DNA from: a virus
IMG/VR virus record: IMGVR_UViG_3300030107_007542
Location: 129,779 to 193,778 of that record
Length of the DNA stretch: 64,000 nucleotides
Strand: one strand, 5' to 3'
This document shows positions 22,558 through 44,234 of the stretch, piece after piece. Below the pieces are notes generated by a model. It was not told the origin of the DNA and made no database searches. It saw nothing but the letters and a program-made list of their open reading frames with translations. The number at the start of each line of letters is the position of its first letter. The first letter of the stretch is position 1. The translations under genes were made by a program, and so were the position numbers.

Positions 22558-22558
22558 C

Positions 22559-32430: not shown

Positions 32431-33492
32431 CTACACCTTGTCGCCAGTCAGAATTTCGACAAGGTAGTTGCCGACCTTGCGACCGTCAGCCGCCGAAGTC
32501 GAGTGGAAGGAAATGGCGTTGTCCTGATTCGCCTGACCAATGACAGTCCAGAGCTTCATTGCAGGCTCGGACGGAAGCGACATGAAGTACGCTGCCAGAT
32601 TCGTCAGTTCACCCTCGTTCAGAGGGTTGGCGAATCGGTCACTGGCACCCATCTTGTCAATGAGAGCACAGTGCGCGTTCAGGTCAATGTCTGGGGTCAT
32701 TCCCTTATCGAGAATGTCCGAAATGGTAACAACCTTGCTGTAGTTCGCAACGAAGTCGTTGAAAGCAACCGCAGCCTCAAAACCAAGGTAAGCGGAAGCC
32801 AGAGCAAACACAGCCGGGTTTGACTGTCCAGATTCCAGAATCCCCGCACTGGAAACAGTGTCAGAGAATCGGGACCACGAACGGCGCGAAGGATAAACCT
32901 TGTTCGGCTCGGGGTCGTCGTTGTGCTCAAGATGCTCGGTGTTGTTCCGAATAAAGTCGGTCACGAGAGCATCGCAGTTCGTTGCAGCCCATGCAACCCA
33001 GTCATCAATGGAGGGCTCAACATCGAACACAGTGTAGCGGTCGAGTTCAGCCGGGTCCATTTCACCGACCTGATAGGAAGCCGCTCCCGCATGTGTTCCA
33101 CCATTCACCGCTGCGAAAATGAGAGTGTCAGGGTGAAGTGCATGACCTGCCAGCTTGCGCGAGTCGCACAACTCAAAGATGCCCTGTCGGACTTCCAGGG
33201 TTGCACGGTCAACCTCATCGAGGAAGAGGACCACGCCATTATCGCAGGCAGTCGCAAACCAGTCTGGAGGACAAAAGGCAGTCACGCCTTCGTCTACAGT
33301 CGGCAGACCCAAAAGGTCGCCTTCCGTCATCTGGCTTGCGCGGCGTTCGACCACCGGCATGCCGAGAGTTTCGGCGTACTGGTAAACAACACTGGACTTG
33401 CCAATGCCATGCCGACCGCGCAGCAGGACAGGGTGATTCGCACTTGTAACGTGCGGGAGGACGAGGAGAAGATTCTTGAAGTCAATTGCCAT
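32431..33492 (-). CDS. MoxR-type AAA+ ATPase
   Basis: 353 aa. VLLRGRHGIGKSSVVYQYAE is Walker A. MTEGDLLGLP and GVVLFLDEVDRATLEVRQGI (Walker B plus sensor region), IFAAVNGGTHAG (sensor 1) and YPSRRSWSRFSD (sensor 2 arginine) define a MoxR/AAA_5 ATPase. It should energise the partner VWA/metallopeptidase downstream. Each gene of the pair has its own promoter. Confidence 0.9.
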   Translation of the reverse strand: MAIDFKNLLLVLPHVTSANHPVLLRGRHGIGKSSVVYQYAETLGMPVVERRASQMTEGDLLGLPTVDEGVTAFCPPDWFATACDNGVVLFLDEVDRATLEVRQGIFELCDSRKLAGHALHPDTLIFAAVNGGTHAGAASYQVGEMDPAELDRYTVFDVEPSIDDWVAWAATNCDALVTDFIRNNTEHLEHNDDPEPNKVYPSRRSWSRFSDTVSSAGILESGQSNPAVFALASAYLGFEAAVAFNDFVANYSKVVTISDILDKGMTPDIDLNAHCALIDKMGASDRFANPLNEGELTNLAAYFMSLPSEPAMKLWTVIGQANQDNAISFHSTSAADGRKVGNYLVEILTGDKV

Positions 33493-33508
33493 GTTTTTTC
33501 CTAGTTGT

Positions 33509-33524
33509 GGGGCTTACTCGCCCC
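33509..33524 (-). promoter_or_regulatory. 5' UTR hairpin
   Basis: Minus strand GGGGCGAGTAAGCCCC hairpin between the promoter at 33538 and the MoxR gene start. Confidence 0.5.
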
Positions 33525-33537
33525 GTCCATTATCTAT

Positions 33538-33566
33538 ATAGTACCACAGGGAGACGCTGCTGTCAA
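33538..33566 (-). promoter_or_regulatory. Sigma-70-type promoter
   Basis: Minus strand TTGACA, 17-bp spacer, TACTAT; drives the MoxR ATPase. Confidence 0.85.
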
Positions 33567-33590
33567 CCCTAAAATTGTTCACTTTCTATA

Positions 33591-34448
33591 CTAACTATCA
33601 TCCTGCGGAACTTCGGGATCTTTCATTTGAGAAAGTTCAATCTCACCATTTACATATTGCTGAAGCTGCCTCCTTTGGAAGTCATCGAACGTCTTGAAAG
33701 CGCGCTCAGTTTGTTCCTGCTGGGCAGCGAAATGTCGCTTCGTGGCCCTCTTCAGGTCCTTGGGGGAAAGGAAACTATCATTAGCAAAGTCAGTCTGTCC
33801 CGCAGAAACCACTTCCCAGTCCATATTCTGGTTTCGGTCATCGCGATCAGTATTCTCGCTCCCATAATATCCTTTTCCGTAGCGCGGCACGATGCCGGGA
33901 ATGCTCGGAAGTGCACAACCAATGGTCCTGCGGTATGCCATTTCGCCGTCCGGTGCCCCAATGTACTCAAAGGAAATGAGAGTCGGAGCAGAGCGCCAAT
34001 CACCACTATTCATAATCCCATTGTAGTGGGTCAAGTCCTGGTTGGGATGACACATTACCATTCCCACGGGAGGAACGTAACCCTCTTCCTGGGGATACAT
34101 GTAATCGCCGCCCCGATAATAGGAGGCGCTATTATTTCGCACCAATGCGCCAATACCGAGTCCAGTGTCATTCGTCCACTTCACCAGCGCCTTGCGCCAG
34201 AGATTCAGGTCCATCTGGAATTGTGCCTTGTGCTTCTTGGCAACATCACAACCAGCGCGGGTGTGTCCCGTTGTGTCGCAATAACTGCAAATCTTTGGCT
34301 TTGCCTTGCGGTCAAGGATTCTCTGCCATTGGCGACCCTGGTAACTTGTGGGGTCTTGCTCCCACGCTTTCCTCAGTGTGGGGCAACTCGTTTTGTTGTG
34401 CCCGCTTTCGTAGCAAATACTACATCGGACTGTTCCGCTCCAACTCAT
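33591..34448 (-). CDS. Two-zinc-knuckle protein with GDLV-like domain
   Basis: 285 aa. Two CCHC zinc knuckles, CSICYESGHNKTSC and CSYCDTTGHTRAGC, lie within the first 70 residues (C-x2-C-x4-H-x4-C). A segment GLGIGALVRNNSASYYRGGD ... VPPVGMVMCHPNQDL then APTLISFEYIG resembles the GDLV fold. The C-terminal helix is Gln/Glu-rich. CCHC knuckles bind single-stranded nucleic acid and are common in retroviral Gag but rare in phages. Probably an RNA- or ssDNA-binding protein. Confidence 0.75.
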   Translation of the reverse strand: MSWSGTVRCSICYESGHNKTSCPTLRKAWEQDPTSYQGRQWQRILDRKAKPKICSYCDTTGHTRAGCDVAKKHKAQFQMDLNLWRKALVKWTNDTGLGIGALVRNNSASYYRGGDYMYPQEEGYVPPVGMVMCHPNQDLTHYNGIMNSGDWRSAPTLISFEYIGAPDGEMAYRRTIGCALPSIPGIVPRYGKGYYGSENTDRDDRNQNMDWEVVSAGQTDFANDSFLSPKDLKRATKRHFAAQQEQTERAFKTFDDFQRRQLQQYVNGEIELSQMKDPEVPQDDS

Positions 34449-34492
34449 TTTTTCTGTCTTTCAGTTGGGGTTATTCTCTAGCTTCTGATTAT

Positions 34493-34521
34493 ATCATAGC
34501 ATCTTTTGGGTCTGCTGTCAA
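34493..34521 (-). promoter_or_regulatory. Sigma-70-type promoter
   Basis: Minus strand TTGACA, 17-bp spacer, TATGAT; drives the zinc-knuckle gene. Confidence 0.88.
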
Positions 34522-34560
34522 CCACTATCTATCATTTAATAAAAGGGGGGCAACCGCTTT

Positions 34561-34662
34561 TCAGGTGTTGCTACCTAGACAACTTTCAACTACTTTACAC
34601 TCTTGCCAAATTAATCGTTGGCCTCGGTGCTGGTATTCACGATTGTCATTGAATACCCACAT
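34561..34662 (-). CDS. Possible 33-residue protein
   Basis: MWVFNDNREYQHRGQRLIWQ then ECKVVESCLGSNT. An ATG follows GGGGTGAATAAAC. It is the only plausible frame in the 190 bases between 34521 and 34712. Weak support. Confidence 0.3.
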   Translation of the reverse strand: MWVFNDNREYQHRGQRLIWQECKVVESCLGSNT

Positions 34663-34686
34663 TTAGTTTATTCACCCCTTATATCG

Positions 34687-34711
34687 TCTGGCTCTATAAT
34701 AAAGCCAGACT
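34687..34711. repeat. Inverted repeat (3' hairpin)
   Basis: GTCTGGCT/AGCCAGAC arms separated by nine bases, directly after the stop of the 34712 gene. There is no T run on the minus strand, so it may protect the 3' end or terminate weakly. On the plus strand it is followed by TTTACTTT. Confidence 0.6.
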
Positions 34712-35320
34712 TTACTTTCTCTTCTTGGCCTTCTTCAGCCATCGTTCTTCCGTCCAAATCGGAGCGGCTGCCCCAATGGGCAATACCTGAATTGGCTTTG
34801 CCCCTTTCGCATGGGAAGTCACATGCTCGCAGTTGCCGTGCTTTAGAATCACACAGGTTTGCCCGTGATAAGCCCGCGCGGCGCTCCGAAATACAGCAGT
34901 GCCTCCCACCGGAAACTTGCTCTCTGCTTGAACGTTCCGAATCACACCAGCCGCATACTTGTTAAGTACGAGCTTGTTATATTCCTTCTCCGAAGGACTC
35001 CCCGCGCAGCGATCCCCGGCAGTTGTGAGATACTTGTAAACAATGTTACCGTAGTATCCGGTCTTTTGGTAATACCGCAGAGCAATCATAAACGTCGCTT
35101 CTTTGTCTTCGTCCCAATCATCTGCCCAGGTTGCGCGGGACTTCAGAGCCTCATCAGACCAGCGTCCTTCAACCTGTTGCAAGACCTCTTCTTGCCGAGG
35201 CGACAACTTGCCACGCTTCGTCAACTGTTCTTCAAGAGATTCCATGAACCCAAAATCCCAGGAACTTTCGTCCCCAGCAATCAGGATTCGACCCTTAACA
35301 TTATTGATTCGTTCTAGCAT
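34712..35320 (-). CDS. Conserved phage protein of unknown function
   Basis: 202 aa from ATG 35320 (MLERINNVKGRILIAGDESS), SD GGAGGAAGG. FMESLEEQLTKRGKLSPRQE, FMIALRYYQKTGYYGNIVYK and the C-terminal AKGAKPIQVLPIGAAAPIWT then EERWLKK form a pattern I recognise from many marine phages: a helical N-terminal half that begins F-x-x-S-L-x-x-Q and a small C-terminal beta domain. Function unknown; possibly an RNA polymerase- or replication-associated protein. Confidence 0.7.
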   Translation of the reverse strand: MLERINNVKGRILIAGDESSWDFGFMESLEEQLTKRGKLSPRQEEVLQQVEGRWSDEALKSRATWADDWDEDKEATFMIALRYYQKTGYYGNIVYKYLTTAGDRCAGSPSEKEYNKLVLNKYAAGVIRNVQAESKFPVGGTAVFRSAARAYHGQTCVILKHGNCEHVTSHAKGAKPIQVLPIGAAAPIWTEERWLKKAKKRK

Positions 35321-35347
35321 CGTGGTGCCTTCCTCCATCGTCTGTAT

Positions 35348-35376
35348 ATAATAGCAGACCGGAGCGGGTTTGTCAA
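35348..35376 (-). promoter_or_regulatory. Sigma-70-type promoter
   Basis: Minus strand TTGACA, 17-bp spacer, TATTAT, then ACAGACGATGGAGG. It overlaps the last codons of the gene at 35373. Confidence 0.92.
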
Positions 35377-35711
35377 CCCTCAAGTAGGATTTTGAGGTTT
35401 TGGATGTGCTTGCAATCCTGTCGAAACTGGAAGCCTCGACATTCACATTTCCAACTGCGGCCAGTCTTGGTTACAGTATACTTCTGTCCCTTTGAACCCT
35501 TGACCTCAATCTTCTTAACATCTTCCGAGACAGCAGGCTTCCCAAAGTTACGAGCCTCTGTCCCCCAACAAAACAAACCCTGAGCATCTGCCAGGGTAGT
35601 GTCATCGGGAACCTCAATCCAAACGCCAGCAGACACAGCATAAAACTTATCTCCCTGTCCCTTGAAAACTGTTGGAGGCCACGGAACGATGTATCGTCCA
35701 TCAGGCGTCAT
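35373..35711 (-). CDS. SWIM-zinc-finger protein
   Basis: 112 aa (start at ATG 35711; 35723 is an alternative). The N-terminal part FYAVSAGVWIEVPDDTTLAD is beta-rich; the C-terminus SWKCECRGFQFRQDCKHIQN is a SWIM motif (C-x-C-xn-C-x-H). SWIM domains bind DNA or protein partners. Common among phages as a stand-alone domain. Overlaps the previous gene's stop by 11 bases. Confidence 0.8.
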   Translation of the reverse strand: MTPDGRYIVPWPPTVFKGQGDKFYAVSAGVWIEVPDDTTLADAQGLFCWGTEARNFGKPAVSEDVKKIEVKGSKGQKYTVTKTGRSWKCECRGFQFRQDCKHIQNLKILLEG

Positions 35712-35949
35712 TTTGTGAGGCATACTCTTCGGCCAATCGCTCAAAGGTTTCACGCTGGAAAGCGTCGATGCTGAAGTACTCCTGATTGAGAGTATCCCAG
35801 TAAACACCGGCTTCAAAAAGCATTTCCTCAACTTCTGGTCCGAGACTGCCCGAGGCTAATCTGTCTTCTGTAAGCCGCTCCAAGGCGGCCTTTTCCAAAC
35901 TTAGGATTTCAGGGATCATTTCGTCTTCCTCCGGGGGTTGCTCATTCAT
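35701..35949 (-). CDS. Small acidic helical protein
   Basis: 82 aa, MNEQPPEEDEMIPEILSLEK onward, acidic and helical with LNQEYFSIDAFQRETFERLA near the end. Its ATG sits in a 4-bp overlap with the upstream stop. No family recognised. Confidence 0.6.
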   Translation of the reverse strand: MNEQPPEEDEMIPEILSLEKAALERLTEDRLASGSLGPEVEEMLFEAGVYWDTLNQEYFSIDAFQRETFERLAEEYASQNDA

Positions 35950-36245
35950 TCTACGTCTACTATAGCACCAATGACCTGAGTTGTCAAGTCTTTTTCCTCA
36001 TTCCAGCCATCGAGTTCCTCAAAGTAATCGTCAATGGCATCATGGACATAAACGCGGTTTTTCGGTCCCCTAATGGTGATAGGGATTACCTGGCGAGTCA
36101 TGGTGGAGTCTCGTAAATCATACACTTCGATGGCCCAGCCTCCATCCCAAACACAGAGATAACGATCCCTTTCAATACTAACTAGCTCTGCACCCTCAAC
36201 AACGTTCAAAACATCGAGCGCATTCCATGTAACATGTTCAAGCAT
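35946..36245 (-). CDS. Small beta-rich protein
   Basis: 99 aa from ATG 36245 (MLEHVTWNALDVLNVVEGAE). It shows alternating strands (YLCVWDGGWAIEVYDLRDST, RQVIPITIRGPKNRVYVHDA), then an acidic helix. Its last 13 codons encode the promoter at 35959. Not obviously a GDLV member. It borders the array. Confidence 0.6.
   Translation of the reverse strand: MLEHVTWNALDVLNVVEGAELVSIERDRYLCVWDGGWAIEVYDLRDSTMTRQVIPITIRGPKNRVYVHDAIDDYFEELDGWNEEKDLTTQVIGAIVDVE
35959..35987 (-). promoter_or_regulatory. Sigma-70-type promoter inside a gene end
   Basis: Minus strand TTGACA, 17-bp spacer, TATAGT, embedded in the 3' end of 35946; drives the 35701 and 35373 genes. Confidence 0.85.
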
Positions 36246-36441
36246 TAGAATTCTCCTTCTTCGCGGGCACAAAATGCCCCTTCTCTGTAAATATGTATCT
36301 CTCAGGGTTATTTCCCCCGAGCATCTTTACTACACAATGTCTTTCAAAAACATCACGCACCTCAAAGCAGTATTCCCGATAGTATGGCAACCAGTCTTCT
36401 GGTGCACTGGGTGAAATCCTAACAATATCACCCGACTTCAT
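36238..36441 (-). CDS. GDLV-array protein (last member of the array)
   Basis: 67 aa from ATG 36441: MKSGDIVRISPSAPEDWLPY, CFEVRDVFERHCVVKMLGGN, then YIFTEKGHFVPAKKE. It keeps the K-x-G-D-x-V start, but the second half diverges from the W-containing consensus. Overlaps the preceding member by 14 bases and ends the uninterrupted array. Confidence 0.75.
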   Translation of the reverse strand: MKSGDIVRISPSAPEDWLPYYREYCFEVRDVFERHCVVKMLGGNNPERYIFTEKGHFVPAKKENSNA

Positions 36442-36622
36442 CGGCAATTTCCAAATTGGCTTTACCGATAATCCACACCCACTCGGGACGCGAACCAACC
36501 ATCATTAATTCGACAGCCGTTTCCGTAGGAAAATCAAGGACTTGAAAGGTCTTGTCCCTGTAGTCTTCCATCCAATCCAGGGCTGGTTTTTCAATCAACT
36601 TTACAACATCACCGATCTTCAT
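36428..36622 (-). CDS. GDLV-array protein
   Basis: 64 aa, MKIGDVVKLIEKPALDWMED, then KTFQVLDFPTETAVELMMVG and EWVWIIGKANLEIADEVG. Resembles its neighbour at 36238 (DWLPYYRE versus DWMEDYRD), suggesting recent duplication of that pair. Both ends overlap neighbours by 14 bases. Confidence 0.8.
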   Translation of the reverse strand: MKIGDVVKLIEKPALDWMEDYRDKTFQVLDFPTETAVELMMVGSRPEWVWIIGKANLEIADEVG

Positions 36623-36803
36623 TTACTAACTCCAAATCTCTCGCCCTGTACGAGCCACGATCTCTACCTTTATTTTGGTGGACCCATTCTATAACTTTGA
36701 TTTCATCCGTGCCGGGGATTTCCCGCACGATTATTCCCAGCCAGCCGCCCCAGTCATCGTGATGGGTGGAAGTCCGATACCTTACCAAGTCACCGACCTT
36801 CAC
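36609..36803 (-). CDS. GDLV-array protein
   Basis: 64 aa from a GTG at 36803: MKVGDLVRYRTSTHHDDWGG, WLGIIVREIPGTDEIKVIEW, then RARDLELVNEDR. Consensus features: G-D-L-V-R, L-G-I-I-V, V-x-E-W and the C-terminal L-E-L-V-N-E-D-R that encodes the next gene's SD and start. Confidence 0.85.
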   Translation of the reverse strand: MKVGDLVRYRTSTHHDDWGGWLGIIVREIPGTDEIKVIEWVHQNKGRDRGSYRARDLELVNEDR

Positions 36804-36990
36804 TTATCACCTCCAGTAAGTCTATCTTGCTCGGCATCACGCTCTCGATACCACTCCACTTCACTAGGGCGGTTGGGACAACTCGATAATGAATCCCCAC
36901 CACGATACCCACGCGCTTACTCTCATTGAGCCACGCGGTTCCCTTCGGATACATCTTTTCGCCATACTTTACCAAGTCACCGACTTTCAT
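36790..36990 (-). CDS. GDLV-array protein
   Basis: 66 aa: MKVGDLVKYGEKMYPKGTAW, RVGIVVGIHYRVVPTALVKW, ending IDLLEVISEGR. The codons for LEVISEG contain GGAGGTGATAAGTGAAG, the SD and GTG start of the next gene. ATG overlaps the stop of the 29-residue membrane peptide. Confidence 0.88.
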   Translation of the reverse strand: MKVGDLVKYGEKMYPKGTAWLNESKRVGIVVGIHYRVVPTALVKWSGIESVMPSKIDLLEVISEGR

Positions 36991-37076
36991 TTTTCATCCT
37001 TCGGTGGAGCACCTAAAAACCAAACCAAACCATAAAATACAACTGTGACGGCCCAACTTATTAAGTTGTGCTTCAT
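36987..37076 (-). CDS. 29-residue membrane peptide within the array
   Basis: MKHNLISWAVTVVFYGLVWF then LGAPPKDEK: one transmembrane helix. Both ends are ATGA overlaps with array genes, so its translation is coupled on both sides, which makes a chance frame less likely. Confidence 0.6.
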   Translation of the reverse strand: MKHNLISWAVTVVFYGLVWFLGAPPKDEK

Positions 37077-37291
37077 CGTATAATCTCTATCTGTCGTTGA
37101 TACAAAGATTCCTCAATCATTTCAGGGCTGTGATGAGTTACAGTGTTGGTGATGCTCCACGCAATATAGTAGTAAGCACTAGCTTCATGGATCTGAACAA
37201 CAATTCCTAGTTCGTCAATGTCGGCACCCTCGGTATCATCCCCGTTCCACCGGACCAATGTTCCAATTCTAAAATCAGCGTGAGTTTGCAC
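37073..37291 (-). CDS. GDLV-array protein (GTLV variant)
   Basis: 72 aa from a GTG at 37291 (VQTHADFRIGTLVRWNGDDT), with SD TGGAGA upstream. DELGIVVQIHEASAYYYIAW and EESLYQRQIEIIR follow the family order. The aspartate of G-D-L-V is Thr here. Confidence 0.75.
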   Translation of the reverse strand: MQTHADFRIGTLVRWNGDDTEGADIDELGIVVQIHEASAYYYIAWSITNTVTHHSPEMIEESLYQRQIEIIR

Positions 37292-37475
37292 GGGACAGAA
37301 TCTCCAAAGTATCGCGCCGGGTGTAAACATCCCAACGGTCGCCATCTTCCAGTTTGCTATCATCAAAAAAGCGCACCCAAACGTGGATGCCTTCTTTGCC
37401 TACAATATATCCCGCTGCGCCCTCGGACACTCGGGACTTTACAACGTCTCCAATTTGTGGTGATTTCCTAGCCAC
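37275..37475 (-). CDS. GDLV-array protein
   Basis: 66 aa: MARKSPQIGDVVKSRVSEGA, GYIVGKEGIHVWVRFFDDSK and YTRRDTLEILSRANSR. Carries a six-residue N-terminal extension before I-G-D-V-V. Overlaps its downstream partner by 17 bases and its upstream one by 8. Confidence 0.8.
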   Translation of the reverse strand: MARKSPQIGDVVKSRVSEGAAGYIVGKEGIHVWVRFFDDSKLEDGDRWDVYTRRDTLEILSRANSR

Positions 37476-37698
37476 GTTTCACCTCGATGGTTCCTGCTTT
37501 TTCCCACTCTTGTAACTCTAGGTCGAAGTAATGATACTCATTGGTGCTGTAAGGGAATCCCACGAGCACAGCCGGGTTCATCATGTCGTCGCAGTCACGA
37601 CGAACAATCCAGCCGAACTCTCTCGGCGTCTCGGCCCATTTTTCGTGACCGTGCAAAAACACAATAAGATCGCCGGGTTTGTAGTCGTCTTGATTCAC
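37468..37698 (-). CDS. GDLV-array protein
   Basis: 76 aa from a GTG at 37698 (VNQDDYKPGDLIVFLHGHEK). PREFGWIVRRDCDDMMNPAV and a Y/F-rich strand follow, ending EWEKAGTIEVKRG. The GTG is preferred because GGAGG lies eight bases upstream, and the upstream ATG overlaps the transcription start expected from 37723. Confidence 0.75.
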   Translation of the reverse strand: MNQDDYKPGDLIVFLHGHEKWAETPREFGWIVRRDCDDMMNPAVLVGFPYSTNEYHYFDLELQEWEKAGTIEVKRG

Positions 37699-37722
37699 AG
37701 TCCGTACCTCCATCGTGCTTAC

Positions 37723-37750
37723 AGTATAGCACACAGGGCGCAAAAGTCAA
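37723..37750 (-). promoter_or_regulatory. Sigma-70-type promoter inside the array
   Basis: Minus strand TTGACT, 16-bp spacer, TATACT, then CACGATGGAGG; re-initiates transcription for the array genes from 37698 down. Confidence 0.85.
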
Positions 37751-37753
37751 TAG

Positions 37754-37960
37754 CTAATCAGGAATCCGCAGATCGTTTACATGTTCCCAACTGTGTTTGT
37801 TGTCCGTAGTATAAACTCTCACCTCCAGGGTGCCATCAACAAAGCCTCGGGTGTCTGTGATAACACCCAGGCAATCAGTAAAAACCCATTTGGGCTTACC
37901 TGTTTGCGGGGCAAAGTTGTACCTTCCTTTTCTCACTATCACTACATCACCGAGCTTCAC
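37754..37960 (-). CDS. GDLV-array protein
   Basis: 68 aa from a GTG at 37960: MKLGDVVIVRKGRYNFAPQT, then VFTDCLGVITDTRGFVDGTL and EVRVYTTDNKHSWEHVNDLR. Matches the family order. Unlike most members it lacks the E-x-R C-terminus, as expected because a promoter rather than another array start follows. Confidence 0.82.
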   Translation of the reverse strand: MKLGDVVIVRKGRYNFAPQTGKPKWVFTDCLGVITDTRGFVDGTLEVRVYTTDNKHSWEHVNDLRIPD

Positions 37961-38147
37961 TTATCACCTCGAAATACCTTTTGGGAACCCACAGGTTCTC
38001 TTTATTACAAACTTTAATAGTTCCGCTAGGCGCCGGATTGCCGGCATCCAGCACCAAGAGAGGACTAAGAGTTCTAGCCCACTCGCGGGTTGGCTCATAC
38101 TTCCAGGCAAAGCCGCGCTTTACTCTCACCAAATCACCGACCTTCAC
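37947..38147 (-). CDS. GDLV-array protein
   Basis: 66 aa, GTG start at 38147: MKVGDLVRVKRGFAWKYEPT, LLVLDAGNPAPSGTIKVCNK, then RYFEVISEAR. Its C-terminal EVISEAR encodes the next gene's SD and GTG. 14-base overlaps at both ends. Confidence 0.85.
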   Translation of the reverse strand: MKVGDLVRVKRGFAWKYEPTREWARTLSPLLVLDAGNPAPSGTIKVCNKENLWVPKRYFEVISEAR

Positions 38148-38346
38148 TTACAACCTCCCACCATGCTCTCGGCAACGTAAAGGGGCAGCGGTCAGCGTAA
38201 TATGCAATATCGTCACGGGCTCCATCAATCAACCATTCTACAACGATTGCCCACGCATCTGCCTGCACCACCATTGCAAGGTCCCCCCGAATGCCTGGAA
38301 AGTCTCCCGTAACATCCTTGAACTTCACTAGGTCACCGACCTTCAC
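38134..38346 (-). CDS. GDLV-array protein
   Basis: 70 aa, GTG at 38346: MKVGDLVKFKDVTGDFPGIR, DLAMVVQADAWAIVVEWLID, then RAWWEVVSEGR. Consensus member with the 14-base overlaps. Confidence 0.87.
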   Translation of the reverse strand: MKVGDLVKFKDVTGDFPGIRGDLAMVVQADAWAIVVEWLIDGARDDIAYYADRCPFTLPRAWWEVVSEGR

Positions 38347-38536
38347 TTACAGCCTCCAAGTCTTTCCGCCTTACCCAGCTAACATCCTTGCCGCCATCAT
38401 CGAACCACCGAACACGCACTTCGCTATATGGTTGTGCCACAGCGACAGAGTTCAGGTGAAATTCCTCTATGATCATTCCCACCCCACCCGGAAGCGATGC
38501 TCCGAAGCGCAGTTTTACCAAGTCACCGATTTTCAC
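38333..38536 (-). CDS. GDLV-array protein
   Basis: 67 aa, GTG at 38536: MKIGDLVKLRFGASLPGGVG, MIIEEFHLNSVAVAQPYSEV, RVRWFDDGGKDVSWVRRKDL and EAVSEGR. Shows the full consensus G-D-L-V, G-x-I-I, V-R-W-F-D and W-x-x-x-x-D-L-E-x-V-S-E-G-R. Confidence 0.88.
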   Translation of the reverse strand: MKIGDLVKLRFGASLPGGVGMIIEEFHLNSVAVAQPYSEVRVRWFDDGGKDVSWVRRKDLEAVSEGR

Positions 38537-38708
38537 TTACAATGTCCAAAAACTCTGCGAGTTCGCAGGAGAATTCGCGGCCCACCGTGTGGGAGTCGAA
38601 CCACTGAACACTTACCGCCTTCTCCCCGTTGAAGCCAATAACCACCCCCAGGCAATTTCCCAAACCACTCAGCTCTATATTATACTTTACTAAATCACCG
38701 ATTTTCAT
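38523..38708 (-). CDS. GDLV-array protein
   Basis: 61 aa from ATG 38708: MKIGDLVKYNIELSGLGNCL, GVVIGFNGEKAVSVQWFDSH, ending AEFLDIVSENR. The start overlaps the preceding member's stop by four bases (not 14), so this junction differs from most. Confidence 0.87.
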   Translation of the reverse strand: MKIGDLVKYNIELSGLGNCLGVVIGFNGEKAVSVQWFDSHTVGREFSCELAEFLDIVSENR

Positions 38709-38902
38709 TGTGCAGGCTCCAAGTCTTTCTTTGACCACCATACTTTATTACCGCTCCCATACCAATAAACTTCGCAGCCATAGTCATCAGGGTTTTTCCA
38801 GGCTGTCTCCATGTCAACAATGATACCGAGACGACCCCAGGGACACGGAAACTCTTGCAAGTCTTCGCGCTGCTTATAAGTTACCAAGTCACCAATTTTC
38901 AC
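38705..38902 (-). CDS. GDLV-array protein
   Basis: 65 aa, GTG at 38902: MKIGDLVTYKQREDLQEFPC, PWGRLGIIVDMETAWKNPDD, YGCEVYWYGSGNKVWWSKKD then LEPAQ. The aromatic W-W-S-K-K-D-L block is typical of the family. Confidence 0.87.
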   Translation of the reverse strand: MKIGDLVTYKQREDLQEFPCPWGRLGIIVDMETAWKNPDDYGCEVYWYGSGNKVWWSKKDLEPAQ

Positions 38903-39125
38903 TGATCAATCTCATTTCGTCTACATAACACCAGTTGGACTCATCCAACTCCGGCCAATGAACCCACACAATTCCACCCGCTTCGTACTCTTCCCGTACA
39001 TACGGGGCACTTTCAAGAAAACTGCGAGGAAAGGGAACTACAATTCCCAGAGCAAACTTCCCGTTGACCGGAGCACAACAGTCAATCTCCGCAACCAAGT
39101 CACCGATTTTCAGGTCGATTTTCAT
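38889..39125 (-). CDS. GDLV-array protein
   Basis: 78 aa: MKIDLKIGDLVAEIDCCAPV, FALGIVVPFPRSFLESAPYV, GGIVWVHWPELDESNWCYVD then EMRLISENW. Longer than most members because of an insertion between the second and third strands. Confidence 0.85.
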   Translation of the reverse strand: MKIDLKIGDLVAEIDCCAPVNGKFALGIVVPFPRSFLESAPYVREEYEAGGIVWVHWPELDESNWCYVDEMRLISENW

Positions 39126-39303
39126 TTCTGCTTACCACCTTCCAGTTCTTAGGACTAACCATTTCGGGGCGGTCAGACTTCACAAACTGAATCTGCATCC
39201 GGTTGAACATTGATATACACTCAGTGCTTATCACAATAGCAAGTGGAGCACCGGGGTGGCAGTATTGAACCAAATCGCCAGCTTGAAAGCCGTGGTGTTG
39301 CAT
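39100..39303 (-). CDS. GDLV-array protein
   Basis: 67 aa: MQHHGFQAGDLVQYCHPGAP, LAIVISTECISMFNRMQIQF, VSPKNWKVVSRNENRPENR. The C-terminus has a duplicated N-E-N-R-P-E-N-R. The ATG overlaps the upstream TGA (TGATG). Confidence 0.8.
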   Translation of the reverse strand: MQHHGFQAGDLVQYCHPGAPLAIVISTECISMFNRMQIQFVKSDRPEMVSPKNWKVVSRNENRPENR

Positions 39304-39479
39304 CAGTCTTCCGTTGAAAGGATTTCAAAACTGTCCAAAGGATACCACGCGGATTCATGATCTCCTGCGAACTGGATATACTCCCCTCGATTGCTACACT
39401 TGTATCCTGTAACAATCTTCATAATCATTGAGCAGTCGCGAACCAACGCGCCGATCATTGTCATTCCACGAAGTTTCAT
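39303..39479 (-). CDS. GDLV-array protein (GALV variant)
   Basis: 58 aa: MKLRGMTMIGALVRDCSMIM, KIVTGYKCSNRGEYIQFAGD, then WYPLDSFEILSTED. Ala replaces Asp in G-D-L-V. Coupled to both neighbours by overlapping stop/start codons. Confidence 0.7.
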   Translation of the reverse strand: MKLRGMTMIGALVRDCSMIMKIVTGYKCSNRGEYIQFAGDHESAWYPLDSFEILSTED

Positions 39480-39538
39480 TTACTTAGTGCCTTCCAAATA
39501 TAGATTATGCAGGCAGTTCCAATTAAAATCTCTAACAT
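39476..39538 (-). CDS. 20-residue membrane peptide within the array
   Basis: MLEILIGTACIIYIWKALSK, one hydrophobic helix with a basic end. Its ATG overlaps the end of the array gene at 39532 and its TGA overlaps the ATG of the next (ATGA). Confidence 0.5.
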   Translation of the reverse strand: MLEILIGTACIIYIWKALSK

Positions 39539-39696
39539 TCTATTACTTTCAAAAAGTGGGGGCTTTCCCAGCAGGACTTCGTGGGCCACTTGACCCAGAA
39601 ATGATTAGTTGTCTTGTCGTATTTTATCACGAGCCCAATCTTAGGAAGGGTAGTGGGTCCGACTTTGATTTGGACCAGATCGCCTTTGTTCGGCAT
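39532..39696 (-). CDS. GDLV-array protein
   Basis: 54 aa, the shortest member: MPNKGDLVQIKVGPTTLPKI, GLVIKYDKTTNHFWVKWPTK then SPHFLKVIEC. It gives the minimal family core: G-D-L-V, I-G-L-V-I, F-W-V-K-W, L-x-V-I. SD TAGGAG lies nine bases upstream of the ATG. Confidence 0.82.
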   Translation of the reverse strand: MPNKGDLVQIKVGPTTLPKIGLVIKYDKTTNHFWVKWPTKSCWESPHFLKVIEC

Positions 39697-39705
39697 CTTG
39701 TACTC

Positions 39706-40086
39706 CTAGTAGCAAATGTTAGTGGTAGGGTAAATATCCCAGAAGCCGCAACCGCGACTTTCAATGTCGGTGTCTTCCTCGCCAACTCTCACAAACTTGA
39801 TGTGTTCACTGGAGCTTTGTATTACCCCATCAACCTCAAACTGATATTCATCGGACTCCGCCTCCACAATGAACCTCTCAAGTGTTTGGATACACTCGTA
39901 GGAGTCGTACCACTTGACACCATCCCAGCGAATAAGCCAGGATTTCTCGTTTTCGTAGTTGCGCTCAAAGTAATCGGCATCCTTGAATACCAAGGCTTGC
40001 GCTGCGGCATTTTGCGAACACGCGAGCGTCAAAAAGGGTGTTAGATGTTTACTGATTGCTAGAACAACTTGAGAGCGATAGCCCAT
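39706..40086 (-). CDS. Conserved phage protein (MGYRSQV type)
   Basis: 126 aa. The start MGYRSQVVLAISKHLTPFLT and KSWLIRWDGVKWYDSYECIQ, then EYQFEVDGVIQSSSEHIKFV are characteristic of a small protein found in many phages and some bacteria, always beginning M-G-Y-R-S. Function unknown. It interrupts the GDLV array and starts the transcript from the 40109 promoter, with SD GGAGG. Confidence 0.8.
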   Translation of the reverse strand: MGYRSQVVLAISKHLTPFLTLACSQNAAAQALVFKDADYFERNYENEKSWLIRWDGVKWYDSYECIQTLERFIVEAESDEYQFEVDGVIQSSSEHIKFVRVGEEDTDIESRGCGFWDIYPTTNICY

Positions 40087-40108
40087 TACATACCTCCATT
40101 GTGACTAC

Positions 40109-40137
40109 AGTATACCACCGAATGCGGCTCTTGTCAA
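40109..40137 (-). promoter_or_regulatory. Sigma-70-type promoter inside the array
   Basis: Minus strand TTGACA, 17-bp spacer, TATACT, then GTCACAATGGAGG. Confidence 0.93.
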
Positions 40138-40140
40138 CAG

Positions 40141-40344
40141 TTATTCTGCAATCTGAAAGTCGTAGGGCTCGTGCGGAATGATGGAGAGGGCTTCGCGCCT
40201 TTCCCATGAATCCCGGTGCGGGGCCAAGTCATCTTCCCACTGCACACACAACTGCTGAAATGGTGTCTCCACCTCATAGCTGCTATCAATTACGGTTCCA
40301 ACCGAACCTGTCCCAAAGTGTTGTACTTTATCGCCAATATCCAT
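40141..40344 (-). CDS. GDLV-array protein (GDKV variant)
   Basis: 67 aa: MDIGDKVQHFGTGSVGTVID, PFQQLCVQWEDDLAPHRDSW, ERREALSIIPHEPYD. Retains I-G-D-x-V, G-T-V-I and C-V-Q-W. Followed by the 40109 promoter, hence no E-x-R end. Confidence 0.8.
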   Translation of the reverse strand: MDIGDKVQHFGTGSVGTVIDSSYEVETPFQQLCVQWEDDLAPHRDSWERREALSIIPHEPYDFQIAE

Positions 40345-40346
40345 TT

Positions 40347-40538
40347 CTAGTTTCCTTTCTTTACTAGATGTAGTTCTTCTTCATAAGCCCAATAAGGCTC
40401 TGTGTTATCCATGAACAACACCCACCACGCGGGGTCGCCGTCCCAGTTTTCTTTACAATCGTCGTCATTATAATATTGTAGTTTACGAAGCGTAAGCCCT
40501 GTTGAGCCTCCGTACCGTACCAAATCACCGGTTTTCAT
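40347..40538 (-). CDS. GDLV-array protein
   Basis: 63 aa: MKTGDLVRYGGSTGLTLRKL, QYYNDDDCKENWDGDPAWWV, LFMDNTEPYWAYEEELHLVK. Consensus start and aromatic-rich strands. Confidence 0.85.
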   Translation of the reverse strand: MKTGDLVRYGGSTGLTLRKLQYYNDDDCKENWDGDPAWWVLFMDNTEPYWAYEEELHLVKKGN

Positions 40539-40731
40539 TTGCTACCTCCACATACTCTTCGCCTACAATGAAGTTTTCCCCATCACCGTGGAGTTCTATA
40601 CGGTTGGCTTTGTGCGAGTGTCGCCGCGGCTGGATAATGCGAACAACCACACCAGCCAAAGAGCCAGCTTCAGGTCCTCTGCTCCACTCTGAAGCGTACT
40701 TTGTCCAAACTGCCAAATCACCAGTTTTCAT
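40525..40731 (-). CDS. GDLV-array protein
   Basis: 68 aa: MKTGDLAVWTKYASEWSRGP, SLAGVVVRIIQPRRHSHKAN, then FIVGEEYVEVANENR. The C-terminal VEVANENR encodes GGAGGTAGCAAATGAAAAC, the next SD and ATG. Confidence 0.86.
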   Translation of the reverse strand: MKTGDLAVWTKYASEWSRGPEAGSLAGVVVRIIQPRRHSHKANRIELHGDGENFIVGEEYVEVANENR

Positions 40732-40912
40732 TTACAACCTCAAGGTCTGTCGAGCGAGTTGAATAGGGAATCTCGTCGCGGGCGAATTGCACCGTGACGA
40801 GGTGGTACGTCTCGCAGAGAAGCTCCACATTCATAACAACCCCAAGAGGACGATCCTCCAAAGGAGTTCCCCACGCTTCGGGGGAGAATGTTACTAGGTC
40901 ACCGATTTTCAT
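40718..40912 (-). CDS. GDLV-array protein
   Basis: 64 aa: MKIGDLVTFSPEAWGTPLED, RPLGVVMNVELLCETYHLVT, VQFARDEIPYSTRSTDLEVV then NENW. Consensus member with a 14-base downstream overlap. Confidence 0.87.
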   Translation of the reverse strand: MKIGDLVTFSPEAWGTPLEDRPLGVVMNVELLCETYHLVTVQFARDEIPYSTRSTDLEVVNENW

Positions 40913-41094
40913 ATTTTACTTACCACCCTCAAACAACGCTTGCTCCACCAACCTTCATTACCAGCAGTGTGCCAGACAACATAATAATGGTCCTCGGACT
41001 CCGCGTGGTCGGCCCTTGTAATTGTTCCCAGTTCGTTGGGGTCGAGCTTATTGCCGCACGAGTCTACATATTCTACCAAATCACCGACGTTCAT
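40909..41094 (-). CDS. GDLV-array protein
   Basis: 61 aa: MNVGDLVEYVDSCGNKLDPN, ELGTITRADHAESEDHYYVV, WHTAGNEGWWSKRCLRVVSK. Starts inside the last 14 bases of the 40-residue membrane protein. Confidence 0.86.
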   Translation of the reverse strand: MNVGDLVEYVDSCGNKLDPNELGTITRADHAESEDHYYVVWHTAGNEGWWSKRCLRVVSKI

Positions 41095-41203
41095 TTCTTT
41101 TCCTGATTATAGATTCATATTCTAGAAGAGCCAGAGCAAAAATGGCGACACCAAGCATCACCCCTTCTTCTGCCCATTGCTTAAACCGGGATGTAATATT
41201 CAT
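41081..41203 (-). CDS. 40-residue membrane protein within the array
   Basis: MNITSRFKQWAEEGVMLGVA then IFALALLEYESIIRKRNERR. One membrane helix with a basic C-terminus. The terminal N-E-R-R is encoded by the SD/start region of the next array gene, the same overlap geometry that GDLV members use. Confidence 0.6.
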   Translation of the reverse strand: MNITSRFKQWAEEGVMLGVAIFALALLEYESIIRKRNERR

Positions 41204-41384
41204 TTTCAAGCTTCTCCAGCTCAAAAGACAGGGCTATGATAGTGTGCCCCGTAAAGGTTTGTACTTCATAATGAAAGCCTTGTCTGTAAGTGTTGCCTTC
41301 GACATACCGGACAATTATGCCCTTATGCCCGTGGAACGTATCGTCGGTTGCTCTGAACCGTACTAGATCTCCTACCTTCATCAT
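41181..41384 (-). CDS. GDLV-array protein (first member of the main array)
   Basis: 67 aa: MMKVGDLVRFRATDDTFHGH, KGIIVRYVEGNTYRQGFHYE, VQTFTGHTIIALSFELEKLE. It is only seven bases after the expected -10 element of the promoter at 41391, so the transcript may be nearly leaderless. Confidence 0.85.
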   Translation of the reverse strand: MMKVGDLVRFRATDDTFHGHKGIIVRYVEGNTYRQGFHYEVQTFTGHTIIALSFELEKLENEYYIPV

Positions 41385-41390
41385 ACTTAC

Positions 41391-41419
41391 AGCATAGCAC
41401 GGCTAGGGGGCGCTGTCAA
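41391..41419 (-). promoter_or_regulatory. Sigma-70-type promoter heading the main array
   Basis: Minus strand TTGACA, 17-bp spacer, TATGCT, followed by GTAAGTATGATG. Confidence 0.92.
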
Positions 41420-41440
41420 GAGGCAATCTCGTATGTTCAC

Positions 41441-41578
41441 TTAGTCAGTGACGGTACCAACCACAGTAGAAACCAGTGTCTCAATCTTCATGATGAGTTT
41501 GCCAGCCGTATGAGGATTTTTGGTCGCCCACCATACTGACAAAACTACAATCAAAAGTATTACTAATAAATCTCTCAT
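41441..41578 (-). CDS. 45-residue membrane protein
   Basis: MRDLLVILLIVVLSVWWATK then NPHTAGKLIMKIETLVSTVV and GTVTD. One strong N-terminal transmembrane helix. ATG overlaps the upstream TAA (TAATG), so translation is coupled. Confidence 0.6.
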   Translation of the reverse strand: MRDLLVILLIVVLSVWWATKNPHTAGKLIMKIETLVSTVVGTVTD

Positions 41579-41763
41579 TACAAACTATCTTTCTTATCCC
41601 ACTTATAGAGCCAAGCATCTTCACACTTTCCTCTGTGGCCCAATCGTTCGATACAATCTGTATTATGGCGGCTGATGTTCCTACAGCGTCTCAGTTCCCC
41701 ACCCGGAAGGCGGGTCAGGATCTTCGTTATGAGATTGTTCAGTTTTTTCTTCACATCTTTCAT
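41578..41763 (-). CDS. Small basic Cys-containing protein
   Basis: 61 aa, MKDVKKKLNNLITKILTRLP, then RRCRNISRHNTDCIERLGHR and GKCEDAWLYKWDKKDSL. The Cys/His spacing (C, C, G-H-x-G-K-C) suggests a small zinc site. Overlaps the gene at 41681 by 83 bases, so it is less secure than its neighbours. Confidence 0.5.
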   Translation of the reverse strand: MKDVKKKLNNLITKILTRLPGGELRRCRNISRHNTDCIERLGHRGKCEDAWLYKWDKKDSL

Positions 41764-41926
41764 AATGTTTGGCCTCGACGAGAATCCGACGGTTGGCTCC
41801 CATCGGCTCTATTTCTATATAGCCGTCAAGCTGCAAAGCCGTAACTTTACTTATTCCCACGGGCACACCCATTTCTCTAGCGAGAATGGGGGTGATCATA
41901 TCGCCCAACTTAAACTTGAAACTCAT
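41681..41926 (-). CDS. GDLV-family protein (GDMI variant)
   Basis: 81 aa from ATG 41926: MSFKFKLGDMITPILAREMG, VPVGISKVTALQLDGYIEIE, NRRILVEAKHYERCEEKTEQ. The start follows L-G-D-M-I, with a longer charged tail than array members. Confidence 0.6.
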   Translation of the reverse strand: MSFKFKLGDMITPILAREMGVPVGISKVTALQLDGYIEIEPMGANRRILVEAKHYERCEEKTEQSHNEDPDPPSGWGTETL

Positions 41927-42213
41927 ACCGGCTCCACATGTCGCCACGCATCCGGCCACATCCAACACACTGTTCCCTCAATAGAGACTTCCCGTACATT
42001 GAAGAAGCCTCCGTAGTAACTGGGGTCTGCCATTTTTTTCTGCCCTAAATAAATCATTAGAGGTTGCCCAAGTTGGACCCACTTTAGGGTCTGGTTTTTA
42101 TGGGGGGTGCTGGTGTCGAGCCAGCACTCATCCCCGCTGTCGCGTAAATACTTATAAATTCGTGGCTCCTTGAATCTCAGGAGCATTCCTGGTTTTAGTT
42201 CGCTTACTTTCAT
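41923..42213 (-). CDS. GDLV-like protein (PGMLL variant)
   Basis: 96 aa from ATG 42213: MKVSELKPGMLLRFKEPRIY, KYLRDSGDECWLDTSTPHKN, VQLGQPLMIYLGQKKMADPS. The strand order resembles the GDLV family with P-G-M-L-L replacing G-D-L-V. Overlaps the membrane-protein gene upstream by 62 bases; promoter at 42284. Confidence 0.6.
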   Translation of the reverse strand: MKVSELKPGMLLRFKEPRIYKYLRDSGDECWLDTSTPHKNQTLKWVQLGQPLMIYLGQKKMADPSYYGGFFNVREVSIEGTVCWMWPDAWRHVEPV

Positions 42214-42532
42214 TTTCGAAACATTTCTCCGCATATGCAGTGTCGTAGAGCTTTGTCACCTTCTGTCTTAGCTCACTCTCTGTAGTATGCCATACGGCGA
42301 GGGTGCTGTCAAGACTTTTTTTGTCCAGTTCACCGCGCTCGTATCTTTCTATCATTTGATCAGCGCCAAAGCGGAGGATTTCCCGAAGCTTCTGAGTCTC
42401 CATTATCTCGGCGAAATACTGGAGGCATGTCTCTTCGTTTCTTTCCTGGGCTAGCGGCAAGGATGTATAAACACATAAGACACCAACCAAGCATAGCAAG
42501 AACAAACACCATTCCTTTCTAATTAGTTTCAT
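42152..42532 (-). CDS. Exported or membrane-anchored helical protein
   Basis: 126 aa. Residues 8-25 (WCLFLLCLVGVLCVYTSLPL) form a signal/anchor, followed by helices (TCLQYFAEIMETQKLREILR, MIERYERGELDKKSL). Contains the 42284 promoter within its coding sequence. No family recognised. Confidence 0.6.
   Translation of the reverse strand: MKLIRKEWCLFLLCLVGVLCVYTSLPLAQERNEETCLQYFAEIMETQKLREILRFGADQMIERYERGELDKKSLDSTLAVWHTTESELRQKVTKLYDTAYAEKCFENESKRTKTRNAPEIQGATNL
42284..42312 (-). promoter_or_regulatory. Sigma-70-type promoter inside a gene
   Basis: Minus strand TTGACA, 17-bp spacer, CATACT, within 42152; would drive 41923 and downstream genes. Confidence 0.8.
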
Positions 42533-42756
42533 GATTCCCCGTATTCATCAAGAGATCGCAAGGGTGTTTCCACTTTGTCCCAATAGTCCTGATTGGTGTA
42601 TCGCGTTTCACCCACGGTTTCTGGGTAGGAAGAATCAAGAACAATGACCACTTCGCACACTTCAGCCCCGCTATTAGTAGTGTGTGTCATGACTACAATA
42701 CCAAATCTACACGGATCTTGCTGGTATTGAACCAGATCGCCAACTTGAAGTTCCAC
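42529..42756 (-). CDS. GDLV-family protein
   Basis: 75 aa: MELQVGDLVQYQQDPCRFGI, VVMTHTTNSGAEVCEVVIVL, YTNQDYWDKVETPLRSLDEY. Clear family start, separated from the main array by about 1 kb. ATGA overlap with the gene downstream. Confidence 0.82.
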   Translation of the reverse strand: MELQVGDLVQYQQDPCRFGIVVMTHTTNSGAEVCEVVIVLDSSYPETVGETRYTNQDYWDKVETPLRSLDEYGES

Positions 42757-42782
42757 GTACTAACTAGTAGAGGACTCCCCAC

Positions 42783-43214
42783 TTACCACCAAACTGTAAC
42801 GCTGTGGCTGTCACCATAATCTGTGGTCACCACCAAGTCAAACGTGTAGGATGAATAGCAATGATAGTAGCCGCTCTCAAACATACGATACCACTCTCCG
42901 TAGTACCCTTGATTAGTCCAAAACCAATCCCATGTGTCGATATAAAATCCTACCTCTAATTCATCTGGATAATAAAAATACGAGGAGCCCGTGTATATCT
43001 CTATATACCATCTAGACTCATTTGAATAAGAGTCGTATTCACATTCAATGTAATAATCATCTATCCAAACATCACTGCTCCCATGATGGTGGCCTCCTTG
43101 AGACTCGTGGTAGTAGCCCGAATCACCGTGTGAATGGTTCCTGGGGGTTGGTTCCACCACATAAATACACCCTGTCAGGCTAAACAACAGAAGAAGAAAG
43201 AGATTTTTATTCAT
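42783..43214 (-). CDS. Tyr/Trp/His-rich lipoprotein
   Basis: 143 aa. MNKNLFLLLLFSLTGCIYVV is a lipoprotein signal (Cys16). The mature part opens with HSHGDSGYYHESQGGHHHGS, possibly metal-binding, and is then very aromatic (ESRWYIEIYTGSSYFYYPDE). DVWIDDYYIE resembles DVWIDSFEQP in the VWA lipoprotein at 52052, hinting at related secreted modules. Outer- or inner-membrane anchored; function unknown. Confidence 0.75.
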   Translation of the reverse strand: MNKNLFLLLLFSLTGCIYVVEPTPRNHSHGDSGYYHESQGGHHHGSSDVWIDDYYIECEYDSYSNESRWYIEIYTGSSYFYYPDELEVGFYIDTWDWFWTNQGYYGEWYRMFESGYYHCYSSYTFDLVVTTDYGDSHSVTVWW

Positions 43215-43509
43215 GCGGAGGTACCGCGATCACCCCAGGGGGCACTTCGCCCTCGACCATTCCGCCGTGCTTTACGATAACATTCGTAACAACATCGACA
43301 GGAACAAAGCCGTAGACGGTGCCGGTGGGGTCGTCTTGGTCTTCGGCCCAGGGCAAAATCAACGCTTCCGTCTGAGACGGAAAGCCAACTTCTACCAAAC
43401 TATATTTCTGTGCCGCGTCTTTGCGCGGGTCGCAATAGGCTCCATCGTGAGCCTGGACAGACATATTAAATCCATCGGCGCAAACAACCATCTTATTTCT
43501 TTTGAACAT
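43207..43509 (-). CDS. Conserved phage protein of unknown function
   Basis: 100 aa. MVVCADGFNMSVQAHDGAYC followed by YSLVEVGFPSQTEALILPWA, then GTVYGFVPVDVVTNVIVKHG is a widely conserved phage sequence type (C-A-D-G-F-x-M-S-V-Q-A, V-E-V-G-F-P-S, K-H-G-G). Function unknown. SD AAGGAGAG precedes the ATG. Confidence 0.8.
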   Translation of the reverse strand: MFKRNKMVVCADGFNMSVQAHDGAYCDPRKDAAQKYSLVEVGFPSQTEALILPWAEDQDDPTGTVYGFVPVDVVTNVIVKHGGMVEGEVPPGVIAVPPHE

Positions 43510-43600
43510 TTTCTCTCCTTAAAATTGGTAGTGGGCAGCGGTGCCAGGGGGATCCCCCCACAACATGCTCCAATTGTTCCTCGGTCAATTGGCCCGAAAT

Positions 43601-43677
43601 TGGTAGGGCAGGCGGGACTTGAACCCGCGACCGGCGCTTTATAAGAACGCTACTCTGACCTCCTGAGTTACTGCCCC
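43601..43677 (-). tRNA. tRNA-Ile (TAT)
   Basis: Acceptor GGGGCAG/CTGCCCT, anticodon stem GCGTT/AGCGC with loop CTTATAA (anticodon TAT), T loop TTCAAGT, discriminator A and encoded CCA. Reads the rare codon AUA directly without the lysidine-modified CAT tRNA. Confidence 0.92.
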
Positions 43678-43732
43678 GCACTATGCGGTAGTAGGTCATT
43701 GTGAGTATCCTCCTAAGTTCGTGAAGCACCGT

Positions 43733-43954
43733 CTAACTCTTGTTCTTTTTACCCCGATAAGTGCGCTGTGGCGGGGGCCAACAAATCTTTAGTTCGATCA
43801 GCTCGGTAGCGGTTTGCTGGAACCAGTCATCCATGTGTCTGATGTGGTGCCTGTCAATCAAAAACTGCCACGCTGCTTGGATGATCCGATGATCATCGTA
43901 TTCTATGATTCCTTCCGCGATATCGCGGGCTTCTCTAAAGGTCATGCCTTTCAT
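43733..43954 (-). CDS. Conserved small phage protein (AWQxLID type)
   Basis: 73 aa: MKGMTFREARDIAEGIIEYD, IIQAAWQFLIDRHHIRHMDD, WFQQTATELIELKICWPPPQ. The Q-A-A-W-Q-F-L-I-D ... W-F-x-x-T-A-x-x-L-I motif is widespread in marine phages; function unknown. Transcribed from 43961, ahead of tRNA-Ile. Confidence 0.8.
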   Translation of the reverse strand: MKGMTFREARDIAEGIIEYDDHRIIQAAWQFLIDRHHIRHMDDWFQQTATELIELKICWPPPQRTYRGKKNKS

Positions 43955-43960
43955 TATTCT

Positions 43961-43989
43961 ATTCTACATCCTTGTGCGCACTTCGTCAA
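43961..43989 (-). promoter_or_regulatory. Sigma-70-type promoter inside a gene end
   Basis: Minus strand TTGACG, 17-bp spacer, TAGAAT, within the last codons of 43964. Confidence 0.75.
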
Positions 43990-44125: not shown

Positions 44126-44140
44126 GTTCTCCTCCTAGTT

Positions 44141-44226: not shown

Positions 44227-44234
44227 GCTTGTTC

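Follow-up and report, generated by a model that had tools for sequence, protein, structure and literature searches.

In T4-like phages, modular gene shuffling has been attributed to short conserved sequences that lie between small early genes (as cited in PMC4503421 and PMC3950731). These promoter early stem-loops (PeSLs; Arbiol et al. 2010, Comeau et al. 2014) are described as composite promoter-terminator stem-loops that are intergenic and shuffle unrelated genes. On that description, PeSL shuffling is the nearest known system to the locus analysed here, in which, by contrast, the connecting sequence is a coding overlap and the exchanged genes belong to one hypervariable protein family. The locus is a tandem array of small genes on the minus strand (36238-41384) of a 64-kb stretch of DNA, hereafter the window, which corresponds to positions 129,779-193,778, the final 64 kb, of the 193,778-base IMG/VR virus record IMGVR_UViG_3300030107_007542. 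We consider it probable that these genes form an operon which is expressed early and consists of interchangeable single-domain SH3-like cassettes, shuffled by homologous recombination at the coding junction between them.

A first-pass annotation of this DNA had assigned four conserved protein motifs to the array genes, the last being a C-terminal LEV(I/V)(S/N)ExR. When gene ends were aligned to the starts of the genes that follow, this fourth motif was not borne out. The stretch LEV(I/V)(S/N)ExR-stop is the sequence TTGGAGGTgATCAGTGAAAGTCGGTGA, which holds a Shine-Dalgarno sequence and then the start codon and four further codons of the next gene in another frame, the stop codon of the upstream cassette being the TGA inside the GGT-GAT of the next gene's start. 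It is a junction in the DNA rather than a protein motif. The connector measures about 33 nucleotides (nt) and contains an exact 14-nt gene overlap; at 36784-36815 (minus strand), for example, the Shine-Dalgarno sequence GGAGGTGATAA is followed by the overlap GTGAAGGTCGGTGA and the start of the next cassette. Exact 14-nt overlaps join 10-11 neighbouring pairs in the window, where 14 junction-like sites (three mismatches at most) were found against none in shuffled sequences.

The arrangement was then followed through a main set of 111 IMG/VR loci (1,168 copies), fetched by the junction sequence among the matches listed. Consecutive genes overlapped by exactly 14 nt in 562 of 1,057 pairs, and the S/N-E-x-R tail was present in 439 of these 562, compared with 1 of the 131 pairs that overlapped by another length and 25 of the 364 that did not overlap. 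The peak at 14 nt appeared again in a second set of loci (202 of 548 pairs). Silent sites of the start codons are likewise fixed, Val-3 being encoded by GTC in 82% of cases versus 19% in gene interiors and Gly-4 by GGT in 72% at non-overlapping starts versus 30% in interiors, which is a constraint at the DNA level. As the end of one cassette is the start signal of the next gene, any cassette can join any other. The pattern GGAGGT..T.ARTGAAAGTCGGTGA may serve as a search signature for such arrays.

Comparison of the loci revealed extensive scrambling of cassettes. Where cassettes were at least 80% alike across loci, their neighbours were unrelated in 243 of 478 comparisons, and five loci (L029, L049, L108, L111 and L126) carry shared cassettes in scrambled order with the 14-nt junctions retained. 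Precise insertions or deletions of one to four whole cassettes between the same neighbours were observed in 16 cases, ~13 of them independent. At 55 downstream and 45 upstream switch points, DNA identity was ~0.88 on the side held in common and dropped to ~0.26 on the other, no higher than for random pairs, and these breakpoints fell within -12 to +22 relative to the start codon. Phages whose gp23 proteins are just 69-70% identical nevertheless share cassettes that are 89-96% identical in DNA. The window itself is collinear with loci L056 and L104 over 31057-36809 at ~78-80%, the array beyond being rearranged; its block 40891-41383 directly precedes the counterpart of the 36609 cassette in L104.

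In the mechanism that we propose, each cassette would encode a single small SH3-like barrel whose frame is conserved and whose loops vary greatly, and the ~33-nt junction would combine the last codons and stop codon of one gene with the Shine-Dalgarno sequence of the next and that gene's start and first seven codons. Recombination there would insert, delete or swap whole cassettes while leaving both genes and their translation intact, because both sides of the junction read properly in both frames. A RecA/UvsX protein was detected in all 16 records tested, and neither a tyrosine integrase nor a reverse transcriptase in any of the 16, which makes the phage's own homologous system the most economical agent. 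Exchange would thus probably proceed by homologous recombination through UvsX/RecA-type machinery during mixed infection. The outcome would be a reorderable operon built without a recombinase, its connector being a coding overlap that serves two frames and a ribosome-binding site at once.

Several points weigh against this proposal. The loci were selected via the junction, so that the share of 14-nt overlaps is enriched; pairs of loci are partly redundant and many are not independent; about half of the neighbouring pairs are joined otherwise than by the 14-nt junction; all relatives are metagenome assemblies; and no functional partner or link to toxicity or defence emerged, with no match in PADLOC, which covers defence proteins and not anti-defence ones. 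In addition, exact runs shared by unrelated junctions have a median length of 9 nt, with 10% of at least 17 nt, 3% reaching 21 nt and 0.13% reaching 27 nt. Such short identity is little for efficient homologous recombination, and many events may instead be illegitimate joinings filtered by selection for a working junction. The same short runs make assembler (k-mer) chimaeras unlikely as a general cause. Since every locus comes from metagenomes or metagenome-assembled genomes (MAGs), it might be suspected that unrelated contigs were fused at the repeated junction during assembly, but we hold this to be extremely unlikely: the shared runs lie below usual final k-mers, the flanks are syntenic, and the arrays occur in >100 contigs from many samples. 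We also think it unlikely that the junction is an efficient translational-coupling signal only, with arrays differing through ordinary gene gain and loss. Its strong, well-spaced Shine-Dalgarno site and the start codon preferences, present even at non-overlapping copies, would suit such a role, but breakpoints inside the junction at both sides of exchanged cassettes, near-identical cassettes beside new neighbours and precise cassette indels would not; the fixation of Val-3 GTC and Gly-4 GGT well above interior usage argues in the same direction, although survivor selection could explain part of it.

A further explanation is tandem duplication followed by divergence of paralogues under positive arms-race selection; the first-pass annotation had read the paralogue divergence as expected for a set diversifying against many targets. 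Such duplication would account for the common fold, the tandem layout and the few near-copies within arrays (c1 and c58 twice in L126). However, the best identity within a locus is mostly undetectable or <40%, whereas identity across loci is often >80-95%, and array copies in the window show a median pairwise identity of 27%. Moreover, the ratio of nonsynonymous to synonymous substitution rates (dN/dS) over 180 close cassette pairs, interiors only, was 0.17 with 2% of pairs above 1. Given the dN/dS value and these identity patterns, tandem duplication with positive selection was rejected, and we regard the explanation as very unlikely; duplication is largely refuted for recent history, though an ancient duplication must have occurred at some point. 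The proteins are kept by purifying selection, as the dN/dS value indicates, and a point-mutation arms race is not the visible source of their diversity. That source is the exchange of whole cassettes between phages, and copies in the same array are not recent duplicates. Cassette shuffling accounts for the random look of such 'ORFan' regions between close relatives.

We then turned to the expression of the array. Nine strict extended -10 sigma70-like promoters (TTGACN-16/17-TGNTATRNT) were found genome-wide, and eight of these crowd into 32389-47067 of the window on the array strand, one of them directly before the first cassette (TTGACA-17-TATGCT; 41391-41419, minus strand). Another promoter of this type (TTGACA-17-TATACT; 40109-40137, minus strand) precedes a 126-amino-acid (aa) gene inside the array. 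Some of the eight carry a shared tail, TGCTATACTRTAAGCACGATGGAGGT. In other array loci, 163 such promoters lie on the array strand versus one on the opposite strand, and the second locus set gave 64 versus one. A promoter was present within 90 nt in 9 of 728 coupled cassettes, promoters sitting at the heads of sub-operons. No T4 late promoter (TATAAATA) was found near the array on the array strand, and an Rfam scan of 34-48 kb returned tRNAs only. Early genes of T4 are transcribed by the host RNA polymerase, and the presence of sigma70-like promoters therefore makes early expression of the array likely.

The relatedness of the encoded proteins was assessed with a core-only profile (columns 9-55, trained on half of the loci, expectation value (E) <= 1), which found 428 of 594 held-out cores compared with 5 of 594 after shuffling and 19 of 2,703 other open reading frames (ORFs); homology of the domain stands without the junction. 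GDLV, G-(I/V)-(V/I)-V and V-x-W are conserved, with variable stretches in between. AlphaFold2 models of the copies at 38705-38902 and 36428-36622 have five strands each in the same topology, with predicted local distance difference test (pLDDT) scores of 86.5 and 84.0. Foldseek returned PWWP, Tudor and other SH3-like chains with a probability near 1, template modelling (TM) scores of 0.55-0.69 and E-values of 0.015 and up, while the profile, compared with PDB sequences, retrieved uL14 (E 9e-4), PWWP, NusG and SH3 chains, nearly all of them SH3-like barrels. The two predicted structures and the profile matches agree with the small SH3-like beta barrel first suggested for these genes, and the domain is predicted to adopt this fold. 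No family in Pfam or PHROGs covers the set. Membership of DUF2158 (PF09926) was considered and rejected, as one member of 80 matched and its score of 20.5 bits (E 4e-4) fell under the gathering cut-off of 22.3.

Two side observations concern the same domain. A conserved protein of ~175 aa carries it fused at the C-terminus in three loci (L064:1422-1940, L068:2504-3037 and L110:12738-13253). Separately, the matches A0A516M7Q8, M7P8, M732, M778, M7A1, M791 and M735 in BFVD have close-numbered UniProt accessions, which suggests one deposited virus carrying many small SH3-like proteins.

With regard to function, we infer that the array supplies a repertoire of small binders directed against host or competitor proteins, for host takeover or counter-defence; a binding fold whose loops vary, expressed early and traded between phages, would fit this purpose. 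More specifically, and only tentatively, we suggest that uncultured T4-like phages keep a binder library in the form of an early operon of 10-40 loop-variable SH3-like proteins, in which the overlap would have evolved as a standard connector for trading and each cassette would neutralise or redirect a different host or competitor protein. In the main functional rival, the proteins would be KOW/NusG/uL14-like barrels that act on RNA or the ribosome and so tune gene expression in the phage or its host. Although the best PDB profile matches point that way, being SH3-like barrels that bind nucleic acids or chromatin (uL14, PWWP and NusG-KOW among them), the fold is promiscuous, all E-values are weak, and variable loops in an exchangeable repertoire would be odd for a conserved regulator, so that we find this reading rather unlikely. 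Should the proteins bind host targets, abundant aquatic phages would offer in these arrays a natural collection of proteins that inhibit the host or counter its defences.

The phages concerned are T4-like: gp23 (PF07068) was detected in this record with an E-value of 2.9e-60, in line with the initial assignment, and it is present in 30 of 36 large array-bearing records. Two scans of IMG/VR found the junction pattern in at least 119 and at least 120 stretches, and 257 Gb of bacterial and archaeal genomes contained it in nine stretches only. MAG contigs bearing the junction include a Halobacteriovorax bin and a Deltaproteobacteria bin, although binning by itself is no proof of the host. One locus, L134, is a 2.8-Mb WOR-3 MAG chromosome (CP070664.1) with four family copies and the junction, reflecting either a provirus or a binning or assembly error. 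By one profile, array-bearing records hold 1-32 copies, this record having 16. Among uncultured relatives of the T4 type, arrays with 10-38 copies are commonplace, most of these phages having 10-30, and the earlier idea that the expansion itself is the novelty did not survive. That the array lacks characterised relatives was upheld by searches of Pfam, PHROGs, PADLOC and INPHARED, the last giving no match by megablast of the region or by tblastn with either the family consensus or an 876-residue concatenation of cassettes. The domain was found in none of five named records nearest by gp23 (including Flavobacterium phage immuto, Microcystis phage Mel-JY01 and Rhodothermus phage RM378), and among 36 contigs sampled by gp23, mostly short fragments, two matched and one (107 kb) held an array. 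No publication describing these arrays was found in the literature searched, which mostly excluded subscription journals.

The inventory of copies in the window was revised with a family profile seeded with 15 array frames and then iterated (E <= 1e-3), which gave no matches in two decoy sets of 11,334 ORFs each, one reversed and one shuffled. It recovered 19 of the 23 frames claimed for the array, leaving four weak ones (36238, 37468, 39303 and 40141; E 0.03-1.5). All frames are where the first-pass annotation had located them, though some starts had been placed too far upstream. Reading along the minus strand, the array opens with a 66-aa cassette (41181-41381, E 1.1e-8; cluster c131, 92% identical to the L104 copy), which has its own promoter close upstream. 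It is followed by cassettes of 61 aa (40909-41094, E 4e-12), which overlaps the next by 4 nt, 64 aa (40718-40912, E 1e-10) and 68 aa (40525-40731, E 1e-7), each overlapping the next by 14 nt, and 63 aa (40347-40538, E 5e-8), and then by the weak 67-aa copy at 40141-40344 (E 0.03). Here the array is broken by the unrelated conserved 126-aa gene (39706-40086), which has its own promoter upstream, no Pfam match, and relatives in 29 of 110 array loci.

Beyond this gene lie a 54-aa cassette (39532-39696, E 1e-8; cluster c130), 96% identical to a differently ordered copy in L104, and a very weak 58-aa copy (39303-39479, E 1.5). The 67-aa cassette at 39100-39303 (E 2e-4) ends in NENRPENR-stop, a doubled junction (ATGAAAATCGACCTGAAAATCGGTGA, 39094-39116) that looks like a possible recombination scar. 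Next come cassettes of 78 aa counted from ATG (38889-39125, E 7e-8), 65 aa (38705-38902, E 3e-14) and 61 aa (38523-38708, E 6e-11), the last with a 14-nt overlap to the following cassette of 67 aa (38333-38536, E 2.5e-16), which bears the weak DUF2158 resemblance. Cassettes of 70 aa (38134-38346, E 3e-9) and 66 aa (37947-38147, E 3e-10), both with a 14-nt overlap to the next, lead to one of 68 aa (37754-37960, E 1.8e-5). The weak copy at 37468-37713 (E 0.16) likely starts at an internal ATG, because a promoter-like site (37750-37723) covers the upstream TTG. The remainder consists of cassettes of 66 aa (37275-37475, E 1e-3), 72 aa (37073-37291, E 2.6e-5), 66 aa (36790-36990, E 3e-12; 14-nt overlap with the next), 64 aa (36609-36803, E 6e-15; cluster c8, its L104 copy having a different upstream cassette) and 64 aa (36428-36622, E 6e-4; cluster c172). 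The final copy, 67 aa beginning MKSGDIV (36238-36441, E 0.46), is weak by profile, yet it is linked to its neighbour by a 14-nt junction.

Ten outlying copies had also been claimed, of which the iterated profile upheld six, all on the minus strand: 46618-46827 (E 3e-7), 45642-45863 (E 1e-8), 42529-42756 (E 1e-4), 28443-28637 (E 3e-8), 24895-25086 (E 2.5e-8) and 7238-7453 (E 2e-4). Those at 45178 and 57009 are marginal (E 0.03-0.2), as is the domain proposed for the C-terminus of a zinc-ribbon protein (27638-28441, minus strand; E 0.03), and the profile did not detect it at 41681, at 41923 or in the CCHC protein at 33591. Across the remaining 130 kb of the record, the profile gave no copy. Tandem copies fused inside one protein were looked for and none was found.

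The flank of the array (31044-36300, minus strand), which falls within the collinear stretch described above, contains VWA/DUF2201, AAA_5 ATPase and CCHC genes among others. The VWA/DUF2201 gene and the AAA_5 (MoxR-like) ATPase gene (31044-33492, minus strand) also stand beside arrays in ~20 other loci. A complete YeaH (DUF444)-SpoVR-PrkA set (Pfam E 1e-104 to 1e-141) occupies 20013-24493 on the plus strand, opposite to almost everything else. GroEL-like and ClpP-like genes were read from the sequence, and elsewhere the genome encodes DegT aminotransferases and a TPP-enzyme with three Pfam domains; the positions noted for this group are 57875-59446 and 61142-61756 in the window and L007:6209-7996.

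Finally, the array was compared with other known systems. Like integron arrays, it is a train of small, promoter-poor cassettes subject to gain, loss and reordering, but here a tyrosine integrase is absent from the records tested and the cassettes overlap, are translationally coupled and share a single fold; no search aimed at attC sites as such was made, and the 14-nt overlaps leave no intergenic space at the junctions concerned. Diversity-generating retroelements likewise combine a conserved scaffold with variable loops, whereas diversity here arises by whole-cassette exchange and the tested records lack a reverse transcriptase. Anti-CRISPR and anti-defence clusters also consist of tiny, diverse, horizontally exchanged phage genes (Nat Commun 2020, PMC7648647), although the known clusters, to the extent that the available text of this report covers them, comprise unrelated folds, in contrast to the one fold and putative anti-defence role of the present array. 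DUF2158 (YodC; PF09926), DUF1918, DUF4314, MSSS, KOW and PWWP/Tudor proteins are alike in size and fold, but they belong to families that do not cover the cassette set. As to PeSLs, overlapping cassettes leave no room for a promoter and terminator stem-loop between genes, while here, too, related T4-like phages exchange small genes as modules.

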